A stretch of DNA of 44,422 nucleotides from Acidobacteriota bacterium (lineage in GTDB: Bacteria > Zixibacteria > MSB-5A5 > GN15 > FEB-12), in NCBI GenBank assembly GCA_035529075.1, contig DATKXK010000017.1, forward strand, positions 1-44,422, written 5' to 3'. Shown piece after piece: positions 2-14,340 of the stretch. The notes beneath the pieces are model-generated. The model did no database searches. It was not told the DNA's origin and saw nothing but the letters and a program-made list of their open reading frames with translations. The position numbers and the translations under genes are program-made. Position 1 is the stretch's first letter; each line of letters begins with the position of its first letter.

Positions 2-1174
2 GACAACTGTGAGACGGCCTACAATCCGGGTCAGGAGGACGGCGATAGTGACGGCTTCGGCAACGCCTGCGACAACTGCGAGGTTGACTACAATCCGGGC
101 CAGGAGGACGGCGACGGTGATGGTGTCGGCAACGCATGCGATAATTGTTCATCTGACTACAATCCTCTTCAGGAGGACCTGGACGGGGATGACGCAGGCG
201 ACGCCTGCGACAACTGTGTTGATGCGCCCAATCCGAACCAGTCGGATTATGACGGTGACGGAGCCGGTGACGCGTGTGATCCGTGCACGGATACGGATGG
301 AGACGGGTACGGCAATCCGGGGTATCCGGCGAACACGTGCGAGTTGGACAACTGTCCGGGCGACTACAATCCGGATCAGGCGGACGCGGACGGTGACGGT
401 ATAGGAGACTTGTGTGACGCCTGCACGGACCTGGACGGGGACGGGTATGGTGATCCGGGGTACGGGGCCAATACGTGCGCCCAGGACAACTGTCCCGGGG
501 AGTACAATCCGGATCAGGCGGACAGTGACGGGGACGGCCTCGGCAACGCCTGTGACAACTGTGAGGCCGCTTACAACCCGGGCCAGGAAGACGGAGATAG
601 TGATGGTATTGGCAACGCCTGCGACAACTGTGAGGTTGATTACAACCCTCTTCAGGAGGACGTAGACGGGGATGACATAGGAGACGCCTGTGACAACTGT
701 GAGGCCGCTTACAACCCGGGCCAGGAGGACGGTGACGGTGACGGCTTCGGCAACGCCTGCGACAATTGTTCATCTGACTACAATCCTCTTCAGGAGGACC
801 TGGACGGGGATGACGCAGGAGACGCGTGCGACAACTGTGTCGATGTGTCCAATCCGAACCAGTCGGACGCGGACGGTGACGGAGCCGGTGACGCGTGTGA
901 TCCGTGCACGGACAAGGACGGGGACGGGTTTGGCAATCCGGGGTATCCGGCGAACACGTGCGAGGTGGACAACTGTCCGGGCGACTACAATCCCGATCAG
1001 GATGACGCGGACGGCGATTTGGTAGGCGATTTGTGTGACAACTGTCGTGATTCGGTGAACACGAACCAGCACGACGGGGACGGCGACGGTTATGGTGATG
1101 CCTGTGACAACTGTCCCGATGATTACAACCCCGACCAGACCGACAGCGACGGCAACGGGGTCGGTGACATATGC
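2..1174 (+). repeat. 17 tandem 69-bp thrombospondin type-3 units with a 621-bp super-repeat
   Basis: Seventeen in-frame 69-bp units run without gaps from base 2 to 1174. Three of them (units 5, 7 and 14) are a variant beginning D-P/A-C-T-D with GYGNPGY-like cores. Units 2-5 (71-346) and units 11-14 (692-967) match almost base for base in the same order, 621 bp (nine units) apart. This implies block duplication rather than only single-unit expansion. The array continues beyond the window edge. Confidence 0.9.
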
Positions 1175-2032
1175 CAGACCTGCTGTCGTGGGCTTACTGG
1201 AAACGTTACCGGAGACGAGGAGGGGGGAGTAAGCATTGCTGATGTCACGATGCTGGTCATATACCTGTTCATAGATCCCAGTTATGAGCCGGTGTGTCTG
1301 GACGAAGCGAACACGGACGGTCTTGACGCTATTGACATCGGTGACCTTACCGCCCTGATCGACTACCTGTTCATCTCCCAGGAGCCGCCGGTGCCGTGCG
1401 GTGCCGTGGGCGAGCAATGGGTCAAGGTTGACCACGTGAACGGGACGCGCATTGACGCAATGCAGACCGGTGTGCCCATTACGTTCTACCTGCGATTCAT
1501 CAATGCGACCGCGGACACAATGGTTGCCTTCGATCACGGGTTTACCATATACTCCACCGACGGAGCGCAATGGGATACGGTGGCGATAGAGGCGTTGCAG
1601 GCCGACTGGCCCGAGCGCTTCGACTTCGTAAATCAGGTCCAGTACTGGAACGTTACCGGCGCTGATGCTGACACGGTGCGTGTAGCCGGCCTCAGCTTCT
1701 TCTTTCAGCCTGACGGCGGTGCCGGCCTGACGCCCGGATTCAATGCTCTCACGTACTCCGTGACCATCGGCCCGATCCCTCCGGAGTCGCACGGCCGTAC
1801 GATCTGCCTCGATTCCTGCTGGTATCCGGAAGGAACCAACTCATGGATGTGGGCTCCCGCGGTCGGCGGAATAATCGGACCCGAATGGGACGGCCCGCGC
1901 TGCTACCGCATCGACTCTACGCTGCAATGCGCACCGGGAGATTTGGGCAGCCCCGACGGCCAGGCGGCGGTGAAGGAATCCCGCCCGCCCGTGCCGGAGG
2001 TCCGGCAGCCCGCGGGGAGGACAAGACAGTAG
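2..2032 (+). CDS. Secreted thrombospondin type-3 repeat / dockerin-like protein (5' end outside window)
   Basis: The reading frame is open from base 2, so the start codon and any signal peptide lie upstream; 676 residues are visible. Residues 1-391 are 17 tandem calcium-binding thrombospondin type-3 units of 23 residues (DNC..YNP.Q.D.DGDG.G.AC). A Cys-rich dockerin-like pair of F-hand segments follows (VSIADV and IDIGDL, about residues 400-465). The C-terminal ~200 residues form a beta-rich domain with Cys/Trp signatures (TICLDSCW, WMWAP), which also occurs at the N terminus of the protein encoded at 34821-37475. No FlgD-like sorting domain is present: the protein ends in a Pro/Arg-rich tail. 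Likely role is a calcium-stiffened surface or extracellular protein (inference). It is convergent with uvrA, with a hairpin terminator between them. Confidence 0.85.
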   Translation, partial: DNCETAYNPGQEDGDSDGFGNACDNCEVDYNPGQEDGDGDGVGNACDNCSSDYNPLQEDLDGDDAGDACDNCVDAPNPNQSDYDGDGAGDACDPCTDTDGDGYGNPGYPANTCELDNCPGDYNPDQADADGDGIGDLCDACTDLDGDGYGDPGYGANTCAQDNCPGEYNPDQADSDGDGLGNACDNCEAAYNPGQEDGDSDGIGNACDNCEVDYNPLQEDVDGDDIGDACDNCEAAYNPGQEDGDGDGFGNACDNCSSDYNPLQEDLDGDDAGDACDNCVDVSNPNQSDADGDGAGDACDPCTDKDGDGFGNPGYPANTCEVDNCPGDYNPDQDDADGDLVGDLCDNCRDSVNTNQHDGDGDGYGDACDNCPDDYNPDQTDSDGNGVGDICQTCCRGLTGNVTGDEEGGVSIADVTMLVIYLFIDPSYEPVCLDEANTDGLDAIDIGDLTALIDYLFISQEPPVPCGAVGEQWVKVDHVNGTRIDAMQTGVPITFYLRFINATADTMVAFDHGFTIYSTDGAQWDTVAIEALQADWPERFDFVNQVQYWNVTGADADTVRVAGLSFFFQPDGGAGLTPGFNALTYSVTIGPIPPESHGRTICLDSCWYPEGTNSWMWAPAVGGIIGPEWDGPRCYRIDSTLQCAPGDLGSPDGQAAVKESRPPVPEVRQPAGRTRQ

Positions 2033-9674: not shown

Positions 9675-11888
9675 TTATCTCTTCTTCACCTTGTCCTTTG
9701 ACAGCACGCTGAAGAATTCGTTGAAGATCAGCTCCTTCGGCTCGGTCGGGAACGGTCCCAGCGTGAACCGGTCGGTCGGGCCGGACACCTCACGGCGAAC
9801 GTAGCTCGACCCGCCGTCGACGTCCTGGACGCGCATGATAATCGGCATCCTGAACTCGGGGCCGACGCCGTCGGTGGCGACGTCCACACTGATTCCGTAC
9901 CCGTCCTCTCCCCCGTCGATGCTGTACTCGACCTTGTACTCGGGGAGGTTTCGCCCGTACAGCCAGTGATGGAAGAACCAGTCGAGGGATCCGCCGTAGG
10001 CTTGCTCGGCGAGGTCAACGACGTCGCGATTCGTAAAGTCCCGGCCGTTGGCCAGACCGGAGAGGGTACGGATGAACTCCAGGAAGGTACGGTCGGAGCG
10101 CGTCTCGAGGTCGTACATGAGATACCGGAGCATGTGCAGGATCCAGGCGCCCTTGGCCGTGCGGTTGTTGGAATGCATGCGCCTGCCGGAAGCGAGGGGA
10201 AGGTCGTCGTTGTTCTCGACCTCAGTGTAAACGTAGTTGCGGCGCCTGCCCATCTCGCCGAAAAACACGTCGTAGCCCATCGCGTCGCCGACATACATCA
10301 GGCTCAGGTAATCCGGTACGGCATCAAGAACCCAGTACTCCCGGTCGGTCACCGGACGGGCCAGGGGTCCGAACCATTGCCGGGCAGCGGCCTTACCGGC
10401 TACCATGTGTATCCCCCCGGTTTCGTCCTGCAGGCACTGTACCTGAGATACCTCCATCAGGCCCGGCATGGCCAGGGTGCTTTCAGGGTAGACGAATACC
10501 TGGAAGGTGGCCGGCGGCATGCCGAGACGTCCGGTCACGAAATTGAACGCGCCGAGAACGGCGGGACGATAGATCTCGTCGGGTATGAAGCACCGGTTGC
10601 GACTCTTGCTGAGGTGGCCCGACTTGACGAAGTTGACCGAGATGCCTATGTCGCTGACCTCCGGGATAGTATCAAAACCGGCGGCGTACGGCTGGAACTG
10701 GAAGTTGGTGTACGGCTCTGCCGGGGCTACCTCGAACTCCATGCGTCCCCCGCCGACGTCGGTCAGTTCCCCCATTGCCGGCATGATGTAGTTGTATCCC
10801 TTGGGCACGTTGAAAGTCAGATGGACGGGCGCCGGAGACTGGTCCGCGACGAACGGCAACGGAATGCCGTAGTCCTTTCCATGATACCACAACCGAAAGA
10901 CAATGGTGTCTCCCTTGAAAACGTACTGCGGCAGAATGACACCGATAAACGTGAAATCGCCGCGCCGGTGGTAATCCACCGGCCGGCCCTGGTAGTGCAT
11001 GGAGTCAAGCTTCAAATTGTAATGCAGAAACAGGGAAACAAAGCGCAGGCTGTCGGCAGTGACACTGAGTTCGATGTCCGCCTCCGCTTCATCAACCAGC
11101 TTGCCGTCGAGCCCGGCCATGGTCAGCCTCGCCTCGCGGCGCAGCATGGTCGTTGGAAACTGAACGTCCGAAACCCGGGAGTCCTCGGTAATCCCGCGTT
11201 CCATGCGTTGCAGGACGGCACCATCGGTCAGGACTACGTCACCGCCCTCGTGTTCGTAGGCTATGATGACCTGCTCCGGGCGATTGGGATCGTATGAAAA
11301 AACGTAGCGGTCGAAGTCGGCCCAGAAGTAGCCGTCCTCGCCGCGCTCGTAATGTGATCGAAGGAGTTGGAAGAGGTTGTCGTAGGCGTGCATAACCACC
11401 GGCTTGAAGAAGAATTCCCCCTGCTTGGAATTCTCAAAATCACGCCACGGAAGTCCCGTCGGCTCGAACGCGAATCGCTCGCGCACCTTTAGGTCGAAAT
11501 CGTCGGCCATGTGTATGAAGCAGACGCTGAAGTCCTGGTTGACGGCGCTGTCGCCCGAGCAGAAAAGCAACGATTGCCGTTCGGTGTGGACCGGCACGTC
11601 CATGCGGGCGTTTCCTTCACCCACGAAGATGGCGGTCGTCGGCCGGCCCTGGACGTGCCGAAGAAGATACAGCTTGCCCTTGGTGAAGGTGAACGTGGCA
11701 ATGTCCTTTTGGTATACGAAATCACTGATTTCGGCCAGTTCAGCCGGCGGTTTCCGCTGCAGATCCGTCAACAGCCGGTCGTAGTTCGCCGTGAACTCCT
11801 CGAAGAAGCCTGACTGGCCGTTGACGGCCGCGGCCAGCGCTGCCCAGGCGAGCGTCAGCCCGCATACGATCCAAATCTGCCTTTTCAT
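9675..11888 (-). CDS. Secreted M1-like (gluzincin-fold) peptidase homologue with a destroyed zinc site
   Basis: A 737-residue protein with a signal peptide (MKRQIW, then a hydrophobic stretch to about residue 24). The C-terminal half has the layout of M1 aminopeptidase-like proteins. Where active enzymes have HEXXHQWFG this protein reads KAAARQWFG (Lys499, Arg503), and the third zinc ligand Glu, 18 residues later, is Asp522. All three metal ligands are therefore replaced while the flanking QWFG and the X18 spacing are kept. It is probably a non-catalytic exported protein, for instance peptide-binding or scaffolding (inference). The frame is intact, so it is not a decayed gene. A strong GAGGAG Shine-Dalgarno precedes the ATG. 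It lies 63 bp downstream of the P-loop ATPase gene, in one likely operon. Confidence 0.75.
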   Translation of the reverse strand: MKRQIWIVCGLTLAWAALAAAVNGQSGFFEEFTANYDRLLTDLQRKPPAELAEISDFVYQKDIATFTFTKGKLYLLRHVQGRPTTAIFVGEGNARMDVPVHTERQSLLFCSGDSAVNQDFSVCFIHMADDFDLKVRERFAFEPTGLPWRDFENSKQGEFFFKPVVMHAYDNLFQLLRSHYERGEDGYFWADFDRYVFSYDPNRPEQVIIAYEHEGGDVVLTDGAVLQRMERGITEDSRVSDVQFPTTMLRREARLTMAGLDGKLVDEAEADIELSVTADSLRFVSLFLHYNLKLDSMHYQGRPVDYHRRGDFTFIGVILPQYVFKGDTIVFRLWYHGKDYGIPLPFVADQSPAPVHLTFNVPKGYNYIMPAMGELTDVGGGRMEFEVAPAEPYTNFQFQPYAAGFDTIPEVSDIGISVNFVKSGHLSKSRNRCFIPDEIYRPAVLGAFNFVTGRLGMPPATFQVFVYPESTLAMPGLMEVSQVQCLQDETGGIHMVAGKAAARQWFGPLARPVTDREYWVLDAVPDYLSLMYVGDAMGYDVFFGEMGRRRNYVYTEVENNDDLPLASGRRMHSNNRTAKGAWILHMLRYLMYDLETRSDRTFLEFIRTLSGLANGRDFTNRDVVDLAEQAYGGSLDWFFHHWLYGRNLPEYKVEYSIDGGEDGYGISVDVATDGVGPEFRMPIIMRVQDVDGGSSYVRREVSGPTDRFTLGPFPTEPKELIFNEFFSVLSKDKVKKR

Positions 11889-11951: not shown

Positions 11952-12497
11952 TTACGTCGTGCGCTCCACGCAGCCGTCCAGGACCTCGATGATCCGTTTG
12001 AGTTTGGCCTCCATGTCGCGGTTCGCACGGATGAAGTGATAATCCGGGTGACCCTTCCAAACCTCTCGAATCGCCTGCTCGATCGCCAGCGCATCGTCGA
12101 TCGGTTCCCGTCGAACTTCGTCCCCCGAGTAGTACTCTTCGCCCAGGGCCGCCGAACTTTCCAGCTGAATGACCGAGGTGTATCGCGCGTACTCGGCGGC
12201 GAGAGTGGTGCCGACGTCGTCCCGCGTCTCGGGATGGAACGCAAACGCGTCGGCGGTACCGCGGTCGGTGATGAACGGTTTATCCTTGAGGGCCGACTCC
12301 CGGGCGACCTGCCGGTGGTAGATAGCGACATGGAACGCGGCCCGGTCGGCCCGATAAGCCGGGTTTTCCCGAAGCAACTTCCTCGCAAGCTCCTCCAGGA
12401 AGACAAAATCACCGAAACGAGGATCGGCCTGAAGCCGGTTCATGAGTTCAGTCTTCCCGGATCCGGGAGCCCCGGTTATGACTATGCGTATGGGCAT
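11952..12497 (-). CDS. P-loop ATPase of the AAA_28 / NadR-kinase-like type
   Basis: A 181-residue soluble protein. Walker A is GAPGSGKTE (residues 9-17) and a nucleoside-kinase-like segment TDRGTADA occurs near residue 80. Overall it resembles the AAA_28 / Ttd14-like family of small ATP-binding proteins related to NadR kinase and thymidylate kinase. The substrate is unknown. The ATG is only about 7 nt downstream of the predicted transcription start, so the message would be nearly leaderless. The M1-like gene follows on the same strand. Confidence 0.75.
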   Translation of the reverse strand: MPIRIVITGAPGSGKTELMNRLQADPRFGDFVFLEELARKLLRENPAYRADRAAFHVAIYHRQVARESALKDKPFITDRGTADAFAFHPETRDDVGTTLAAEYARYTSVIQLESSAALGEEYYSGDEVRREPIDDALAIEQAIREVWKGHPDYHFIRANRDMEAKLKRIIEVLDGCVERTT

Positions 12498-12510
12498 AAG
12501 TGTTCACAAC

Positions 12511-12539
12511 AATCTATTTTGGCCCTGCCGGAGTGTCAA
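12511..12539 (-). promoter_or_regulatory. Sigma-70-like promoter of the ATPase / M1-like operon
   Basis: On the minus strand, TTGACA (complement of 12534-12539), a 17-bp spacer and TAGATT (complement of 12511-12516). The predicted start is near 12504, about 7 nt from the ATG at 12497. Confidence 0.65.
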
Positions 12540-12551
12540 GTTACGAATAGG

Positions 12552-12580
12552 TTGAGTTGGTGCCGTTTTTTGAGTATCAT
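12552..12580 (+). promoter_or_regulatory. Probable promoter of the M24 peptidase operon
   Basis: TTGAGT (12552-12557), a 17-bp spacer and TATCAT (12575-12580). The predicted start is near 12587, directly before the GGAG (12589-12592) that serves the GTG start at 12600. It is divergent from the ATPase promoter, within 102 bp. Confidence 0.5.
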
Positions 12581-12599
12581 AAACGTCCGGAGCACGGCA

Positions 12600-13772
12600 G
12601 TGGACATCGAAGCGATCCAAGCATACCTGGTGGAACACGACCTGGACGGCTGGCTGATGGCCGATTTCCACGGCCGCAATGACATCGCCGTGAGCATGCT
12701 GCGGCTCGGCGGTGTCCTGACGCGGCGTTCTTTCTATTTCATCCCTGACCGGGGTGAACCGGTTGCGCTGGTCCATGCGGTCGAAACGGGGAAGTTTCGC
12801 GGCCTGTCCGGCCGTGTTATCATCTACTCGGGGTACGGGCAACTTGAACACGAGTTGCAATCCATCCTTGACCGGAAGGCGAGAATCGCCATGGAGTATT
12901 CTCCGAGCGGTCGTCTTCCCTACGTCGGTTTGGTCGACGCCGGCACCGTGGAACTGGTCCGTCGGCTGGGCGTACAGATAGAGTCGTCAGCCGATCTGGT
13001 AGCCTCGTTCCAGGCGCGCCTCACCCCCGAGCAGGTGGCGGCTCACCGCATCGCCGCCCGCAACCTGGTAGAGATCAAGGACACGGCCTTCTCGTACGTT
13101 GCCGAGGCCGTGCGCGCCGGAAAGTCCATTACCGAGCACGACGTTTGCTCCTTCATCAAGGAACGTTTCGCCGAGTATGACATGCATACTGCCTCCGGGC
13201 CGATCTGTGCCGTGGACGGACACGCCGGCGATCCGCACTACGAGCCGACCGCAGAACATTGCGCCGGCATCGGCCCCGGGCAGCTCGTGCTTATCGACAT
13301 GTGGGCACGAATCAATACCGAACTGTCGGTCTATGCGGACATCACGTGGATGGCCTATACGGGTGCACGGCAGGACGTGCCGTCGAAGTTCCAGGACATC
13401 TTCTCCGTCCTCAGGCGCGCGCGCGACGCCGCGGTGGCGTTCCTGAGCAAAAATCTCGTCGCGCGGCCCGTCCTCGGCTGCGAAGTGGATGACGTTTGCC
13501 GGGGCGTGATCGAGGCCGCCGGCTACGGCCGGTACTTCACGCACCGCACCGGCCACTCGATCACCACTTCCGAGCATGGTTCGGGTCCGAACATTGACAA
13601 CCTCGAAACGGAGGATCGACGAAAACTCCAGCGGGGGCATCTCTTTTCGATCGAGCCCGGCATTTACATGACGGACTGCGGGTTCCGGACGGAGATAAAC
13701 GTGCTCGTCAGTCACGAGGGCTGCGAGGTGACAACGCTGCCCCTGCAGCACGACATCCTTCCCCTGCTCTGA
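12600..13772 (+). CDS. M24 family metallopeptidase (Xaa-Pro aminopeptidase-like)
   Basis: A 390-residue protein: an N-terminal creatinase-type domain (about 1-135) followed by a pita-bread catalytic domain. All five dinuclear-metal ligands can be assigned: Asp in VLIDMW, Asp in YADITW, His in the RTGHSITTSEHG region, Glu in SIEPGIYM and Glu in RTEINV. It probably removes N-terminal residues preceding proline from peptides in the cytoplasm. The open frame extends back to 12036 across the divergent promoter and the ATPase gene. The GTG at 12600 has GGAG 7 nt upstream and a matching promoter, so it is the start. It is followed after 1 nt by the NUDIX gene. Confidence 0.88.
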   Translation: MDIEAIQAYLVEHDLDGWLMADFHGRNDIAVSMLRLGGVLTRRSFYFIPDRGEPVALVHAVETGKFRGLSGRVIIYSGYGQLEHELQSILDRKARIAMEYSPSGRLPYVGLVDAGTVELVRRLGVQIESSADLVASFQARLTPEQVAAHRIAARNLVEIKDTAFSYVAEAVRAGKSITEHDVCSFIKERFAEYDMHTASGPICAVDGHAGDPHYEPTAEHCAGIGPGQLVLIDMWARINTELSVYADITWMAYTGARQDVPSKFQDIFSVLRRARDAAVAFLSKNLVARPVLGCEVDDVCRGVIEAAGYGRYFTHRTGHSITTSEHGSGPNIDNLETEDRRKLQRGHLFSIEPGIYMTDCGFRTEINVLVSHEGCEVTTLPLQHDILPLL

Positions 13773-13773
13773 G

Positions 13774-14340
13774 ATGTACGTCACCGACGAGATGATCAGG
13801 CGCATGGAGCGCCTCTATGGGGTCCCCGGCCGTGCCTCGTTCGCTTTCGAGGTCTCCCGGCGGGAGTTCGACCGCATCCGGTTTTCGCAACGCAACGGCC
13901 GCAATCATGACGTCACTCTCTACATAAGAAAGGGCGACAGGCTGGCTGTGAATGCAAAGCCGTTTTATCCCCCGGGGCTCTACCGGGCGCCGTCCGGCGG
14001 CCTGGAACCGGGAGAAGATTTCCATGACGGCATTCGCCGCGAGGTCACCGAAGAGGTGGGCTGCGAAATCCGGCTTGACCGCTTTGTGCTGCGCACTGCG
14101 GCGACGTTCACTCACGGTGACGAGCACATTGACTGGAGGTCATTCGTGTTCACGGCTGATTACGTCCGGGGTGACTTTCGGTTCACGGACACCCGCGAGA
14201 TCGCAGAAGTCCGGCTTGCACGCTGGGCTGACTTTGACACCTTCGGCAGGATCATGCGTCAAAGCGACGTAGGCGGCTTGCACTACCGGGCGGCGCTGCA
14301 CGAAGAGGTTGAAAGACTCGTTTGCGGGGACCGCAAGTGA
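13774..14340 (+). CDS. NUDIX hydrolase
   Basis: A 188-residue protein with an intact Nudix box at residues 75-96: G-x5-E (GGLEPGE), x7, then REVTEEVG. It cleaves a nucleoside diphosphate linked to another moiety, with Mg2+ or Mn2+; the substrate is not predictable. A ~60-residue N-terminal extension with many Arg and Phe precedes the Nudix fold. The ATG follows the M24 stop by 1 nt and the stop overlaps the murJ start, so it is translationally coupled on both sides. Confidence 0.88.
   Translation: MYVTDEMIRRMERLYGVPGRASFAFEVSRREFDRIRFSQRNGRNHDVTLYIRKGDRLAVNAKPFYPPGLYRAPSGGLEPGEDFHDGIRREVTEEVGCEIRLDRFVLRTAATFTHGDEHIDWRSFVFTADYVRGDFRFTDTREIAEVRLARWADFDTFGRIMRQSDVGGLHYRAALHEEVERLVCGDRK

Follow-up and report, generated by a model that had tools for sequence, protein, structure and literature searches.

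A conserved, probably exported M1-fold protein without a zinc site in one family of Zixibacteria

The window, that is, the whole 44,422-nucleotide stretch of DNA analyzed here, encodes a protein that resembles M1 zinc peptidases and carries other residues at every position of the zinc motif. Such a locus raises the question of whether the protein belongs to the M1 family at all and, if it does, whether it is a decaying copy, a peptidase with a displaced metal site, or a protein kept for another task.

Gene, domains and M1 homology

The preliminary description had read an intact frame of 737 residues with a strong ribosome site and a promoter. The frame is indeed intact on the minus strand, with its ATG at 11888, a stop codon ending at 9675 and GAGGAG at a spacing of 5 nt ahead of the start codon. 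The promoter claim stood in part: a promoter-like site is present (10/12 matches), but it lies upstream of the P-loop gene and not directly upstream of the pseudo-peptidase gene. It is the sole such site on the minus strand and constitutes weak evidence, since the scan found two sites where 1.0 was expected; its position fits a two-gene transcription unit. The genome of the window (G000) comprises 3.04 Mb and is an estimated 100% complete. The gene-level and domain-level features are as follows:

9675-11888, minus strand: gene of the pseudo-M1 peptidase homologue, 737 aa plus stop codon
11894-11899, minus strand: Shine-Dalgarno sequence GAGGAG, read directly from the sequence
12511-12539, minus strand (12539 to 12511): promoter-like site TTGACA-17-TAGATT
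11952-12497, minus strand: small P-loop protein of 181 aa (PF13521, AAA_28), operon partner directly upstream
11817-11888, minus strand: predicted signal peptide, residues 1-24 (end approximate)
11151-11816, minus strand: N-terminal domain, residues 25-246
10599-11150, minus strand: region of the M1 N-terminal beta domain, residues 247-430 (borders approximate)
9939-10598, minus strand: region of the M1 catalytic domain, residues 431-650, ligands lost
9678-9938, minus strand: C-terminal beta domain, residues 651-737

Searches of Pfam, NCBIfam and the PDB with the window protein as a single sequence returned no matches; the M1 assignment could therefore be confirmed only with a family profile, and the preliminary description had drawn it from the motif pattern alone. 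When a profile of 38 clade members was compared with solved structures, the best match was Taf2 (PDB 6hqa; E 2e-10, residues 444-663), followed by puromycin-sensitive aminopeptidase and then by tricorn-interacting factor F3. PF01433 was matched by 17 of the 38 orthologues (best E 1.6e-6), the window protein itself not being among them, and hhalign aligned the clade end to end with a sister subfamily that has an intact HEXXH (100% probability, E 3e-66, 657 columns). A Foldseek search with the predicted model gave M1 aminopeptidases as all of the best 50 matches listed (best E 1.6e-13). This AlphaFold2 model, built from five sequences, is of low confidence overall (pLDDT 54, pTM 0.46) and better C-terminally, where blocks from residue 491 to 720 mostly have pLDDT values of 54-90; a separate model of the N-terminal domain was poor (pLDDT 48). 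Together, the profile, profile-profile and fold results establish M1 homology over nearly the full length. Both the fold and the detectable sequence homology that place a protein in the M1 family (clan MA, gluzincin) are present, and the refuting case named in the preliminary description, a predicted fold unrelated to gluzincins, did not arise.

Of the 48 orthologues, 46 begin with a hydrophobic segment, as read from their sequences; it usually ends in an A-x-A-like site, which a conserved S/E-F-F-K-F stretch directly follows. The pseudo-peptidase is thus probably exported by a signal peptide. The N-terminal domain that follows shows the strongest conservation within the clade, its mean entropy being lower than that of the catalytic domain, and hhalign showed that a homologous region exists in the intact sister. 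The beta domain after it was likewise delimited by hhalign with the sister. The catalytic-domain region largely coincides with the match to the Taf2 structure and has predicted helices with pLDDT of about 50-90, and the C-terminal domain, for which mainly beta structure is predicted (pLDDT 77-90 as far as residue 720), aligned to the end of the sister protein.

The former active site and its fate in the family

The residues at and near the former active site are located as follows:

10380-10394, minus strand: K499-AAA-R503, replacing HEXXH
10368-10379, minus strand: Q504-W-F-G507, core kept after the lost motif
10323-10325, minus strand: D522, replacing the third zinc ligand, Glu
10158-10160, minus strand: T577, replacing the catalytic Tyr
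10590-10592, minus strand: C433, first half of a predicted clade-specific disulfide
10434-10436, minus strand: C485, second half of the predicted disulfide

The sister sequence RAHEVAHQWWG...WLSEG pairs column for column, without a gap in the motif, with AGKAAARQWFG...WVLDA of the window protein, so that K499-AAA-R503 stands opposite HEVAH. This alignment upholds the initial observation that HEXXH-X18-E has been replaced at exact spacing by K499-AAA-R503...D522 while QWFG is kept. The zinc ligands and catalytic Glu of HEXXH-X18-E are thus occupied by K499, A500, R503 and D522, and the catalytic Tyr of Y-x-K-G-A by T577. HEXXH was found at this site in none of the 48 long orthologues of the clade. 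At the first His position, 13 residue types occur (entropy at the 97th percentile), with His kept in three members; the catalytic Glu column holds A, Q, S, E, G or M, with Glu kept in seven; and Arg predominates at the second His position (30 members), where His occurs once. The column of the third ligand, E in 19/19 other sequences, contains D in 24 clade members, E in eight and nine further residues, and that of the catalytic residue, Tyr in 17/19 others, has Tyr in 0/48. The clade as a whole has therefore lost the three zinc ligands together with the catalytic Glu and Tyr.

Where the intact sister is invariant (H, E, H, E), the columns of the clade have become variable, and residues around them are fixed or nearly so: Q504, W505, G507, W519, R570, H585, M586, R588 (HMLR) and E628. 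Within QWFG, Q is kept in 47/48, W in 45/48, F in 44/48 and G in 46/48 members. This combination indicates that constraint acts on the shell but not on the pocket. It had been asked whether KAAAR...D is a conserved variant; the family search rejected it as a new motif, because the ligand columns vary, the letters are a local outcome and only the absence of the site is conserved. The exopeptidase motif GXMEN is also lacking, both in the window protein (PGLMEVSQ) and in the intact sister (PGFLHLG), so the whole subfamily departs from other M1 proteins at this point.

Orthologues, full-length or partial, were found in 52 of the 54 genomes of the window's family, fragments counted, and full-length relatives at 42-68% identity in most of them. 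A search of 132 genomes from the phylum, most of them MAGs that differ in completeness, gave matches below 1e-40 outside the family in G071 only, whose protein has an intact HEXXH; the comparison beyond Zixiibacteriota was a near-relative scan. In a tree built without the five catalytic columns, the clade members form one branch (SH-aLRT 100), which shows that the clade has a single origin. The stem is long (1.8-2.0 changes per column), which makes it uncertain where the clade arose relative to the sister subfamily.

The gene is under strong purifying selection, as the preliminary description had supposed: whole-gene dN/dS was 0.11-0.145 in six close pairs with unsaturated dS (0.20-0.46), and the 38-sequence alignment has 48 invariant columns and a mean column identity of 54%. 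Nearly all full-length copies are open, and a few are broken or split (G016 with one TAG, G024, G014). The idea of a single decayed copy among relatives with a normal HEXXH was rejected, as all 48 long orthologues lack the motif. The protein thus combines the M1 fold, the loss of the catalytic residues and maintenance by selection that characterize a pseudo-M1 homologue. In the single-contig genome G014, the pseudo-peptidase lies in two pieces about 845 kb apart (loci L039 and L076), one covering query residues 21-177 and adjoining the P-loop gene and the other covering 138-737, through either rearrangement or assembly error.

The intact sister subfamily was detected in 72 of the 132 phylum genomes at E <= 1e-30, a few of them via pseudo-clade members. 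At this threshold, no close intact sister was found in G000 or in the well-assembled genomes G022, G023, G028 and G029, in which the pseudo-peptidase is kept; a role as obligate partner of this sister was therefore rejected. The window's genome encodes four other M1-domain proteins (PF01433), all of which keep HEXXH. Two loci in this genome (L002:433-2760 and L003:1060-3153) encode active-looking M1 peptidases (HELSH) with C-terminal dockerin-like repeats. In the window itself, positions 344-2032 (plus strand) encode many D-x-D-x-D-G calcium-type repeats, resembling thrombospondin type 3, and a dockerin-like segment.

The sister subfamily has itself produced further dead copies: one in three species of genus g30, L049 and L106. 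The g30 copies (L047:3313-5541, L098:1086-3668, L099:1336-3264; e.g. RANLVARQWWG...WLTES) have N-L/M-V-A-R, keep the Glu ligand and were derived separately from the pseudo-clade. They carry a long insertion before the YRKGA motif and, in two of the three species, lie in tandem with an intact HEXXH copy. L106:1641-4178, from a different family (f3, genome G072), encodes an M1 homologue without HEXXH (TTYAARQWFG...WLETG) that adjoins an opposite-strand ORF with HELAHQWWG. In G111, L100:2162-13884 holds five tandem M1 genes of the intact sister type.

Clade-specific gains and the P-loop gene

At 55 positions the clade is near-invariant where the sister is not; 31 of these fall in residues 25-246, against 17 expected by length (binomial p 9e-5). 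The clade has also acquired a pair of cysteines. Of the 48 members, 44 have both C433 and C485 and four have neither, no member having one alone; both are absent from all 19 other sequences. This co-variation gives a Fisher p of 5e-6 when phylogeny is ignored, and the lineages without the pair number three and are separate on the tree. The simplest reading of the co-occurrence is that C433 and C485 form a disulfide. In the predicted secondary structure, C433 precedes the first helix of the catalytic domain and C485 lies just before the former HEXXH helix. The bond would help to hold the former metal-site region together, and it may have taken over the structural role of zinc.

The preliminary description had also placed the gene in an operon with a small P-loop ATPase gene, and the adjacency is conserved. 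The P-loop protein matches PF13521 with 70.6 bits (cut-off 27; E 2.3e-19) and has the Walker A sequence GAPGSGKT, as expected of AAA_28 proteins; G9, P11, S13 and K15 are conserved in at least 95% of 39 sequences, and a DRGT motif is also conserved. Its gene was found in 45 genomes of the window's family and in 0/78 others. In 43 of the 45 it lies immediately upstream of the pseudo-peptidase gene and is read in the same direction, the two exceptions being on different contigs, and the gaps are mostly roughly 40-140 bp. The P-loop gene is absent while the pseudo-peptidase is kept in genus g20 (except G031, and leaving the incomplete G036 aside), G013 and G019, and G043 has neither gene. The P-loop protein was therefore rejected as an obligate partner, and the pair is best regarded as a conserved but not obligatory unit. 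As the P-loop protein has no signal peptide, the two proteins would be expected to lie on opposite sides of the membrane; it would thus probably act as an active small-molecule kinase or NTPase in the same pathway as the pseudo-peptidase rather than in one complex with it.

A degraded remnant of the P-loop gene with an in-frame TGA was seen in G001 (L079:3507-3674), upstream of an intact pseudo-peptidase gene. On the plus strand of the window, an ORF at 12036-13772, whose true start is probably well inside, matches M24 Xaa-Pro peptidase/aminopeptidase models in its C-terminal part, and many relatives retain this gene close to the pseudo-peptidase. A minus-strand ORF at 12987-13805 runs antisense to the M24-like gene and was discarded for that reason.

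Possible function and relation to known M1 proteins

The M1 fold, the absence of HEXXH and the dN/dS values support the initial interpretation of a maintained, non-catalytic pseudo-peptidase, and it is very likely that the protein does something other than cut proteins. Our best explanation, to which we assign a probability of roughly 0.6, is that it is an exported, zinc-free M1-fold pseudo-peptidase with an extra N-terminal domain that would serve as a binding or scaffold protein. The retained M1 shell and the strongly conserved N-terminal domain would bind an extracytoplasmic partner, either a peptide or a protein, and the protein may act as a scaffold or chaperone-like adaptor. A more specific version seems to us doubtful: a disulfide in place of the zinc site, an exported peptide or protein receptor whose function resides in the N-terminal domain, and a two-gene unit with a family-specific P-loop kinase.

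The main rivals of a binding or scaffold role are a new enzymatic activity and a regulatory role toward a distant M1 protein. An activity gained through other residues, whether of the M1 shell or of the N-terminal domain, would agree with the concentration of clade-gained residues in that domain, many of which are polar or charged (Y59, K61, D62, R77, R82, D132, H167, D170, R182, E212). However, the domain has no Pfam or NCBIfam match and no recognized catalytic signature, and its homologue in the intact sister belongs to an enzyme whose active site is elsewhere, so we consider such an activity unlikely. We give no more credence to a regulator or decoy that acts on an active M1 peptidase of its own cell. 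Candidate partners are available in the four HEXXH-bearing proteins of the window's genome, and genus g30 has a tandem pair made up of a dead copy of separate descent and an intact one; according to a review, pseudopeptidases sometimes regulate active cousins (PMC11266112). Nevertheless, the absence of the close intact sister from the five genomes named above shows that it is not an obligate partner, and the remaining M1 proteins of G000 are distant.

It is very improbable that the protein is still a metallopeptidase with zinc held by other residues or shifted ligands. The scattered clade members that keep the catalytic Glu or one of the His residues, and the invariance of H585, could be read in its favor, but no ligand column shows a conserved His, Glu or Asp replacement, the Tyr is lost too, and H585, which does not vary in the intact sister either, is thus not a new ligand. 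Freely drifting ligand columns and the few broken or split copies might instead suggest a decaying pseudogene that keeps its frame by chance. With nearly all full-length copies open, a dN/dS of about 0.12 and 48 invariant columns, conservation and selection refute this reading and leave it practically no probability.

An old, nearly universal and probably exported dead M1 family exists in one bacterial lineage beside an intact sister and separate inactivations, which together form a natural series for the conversion of a peptidase fold into a binding protein. The C433/C485 pair offers a testable replacement of zinc by a disulfide, and a protein that was blank in single-sequence Pfam and NCBIfam searches now has a homology class. 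To our knowledge, catalytically dead M1 homologues are mostly eukaryotic (TAF2, Tma108), and among open-access papers no description of bacterial M1 pseudo-peptidases or of Zixibacteria aminopeptidases was found.

TAF2 of TFIID, the best PDB profile match of the clade, is itself an M1 fold without a catalytic site. Unlike the bacterial, probably exported window protein, it is a much larger subunit of a eukaryotic nuclear transcription factor. The yeast M1 homologue Tma108, according to the same review (PMC11266112), probably works by binding through its substrate pocket rather than by cutting; it differs in keeping all active-site residues but one and in associating with nascent chains on ribosomes. 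The M1 aminopeptidases (PepN, ERAP1/2, PSA) share fold matches, QWFG and the C-terminal core with the window protein, which lacks their zinc ligands, catalytic Glu and Tyr. The intact Zixiibacteriota sister (e.g. L044, RAHEVAHQWWG...WLTEG) has a similar length and a similar domain order, including the N-terminal domain, but it keeps HEXXH-X18-E and the Tyr and is without the C433/C485 pair.
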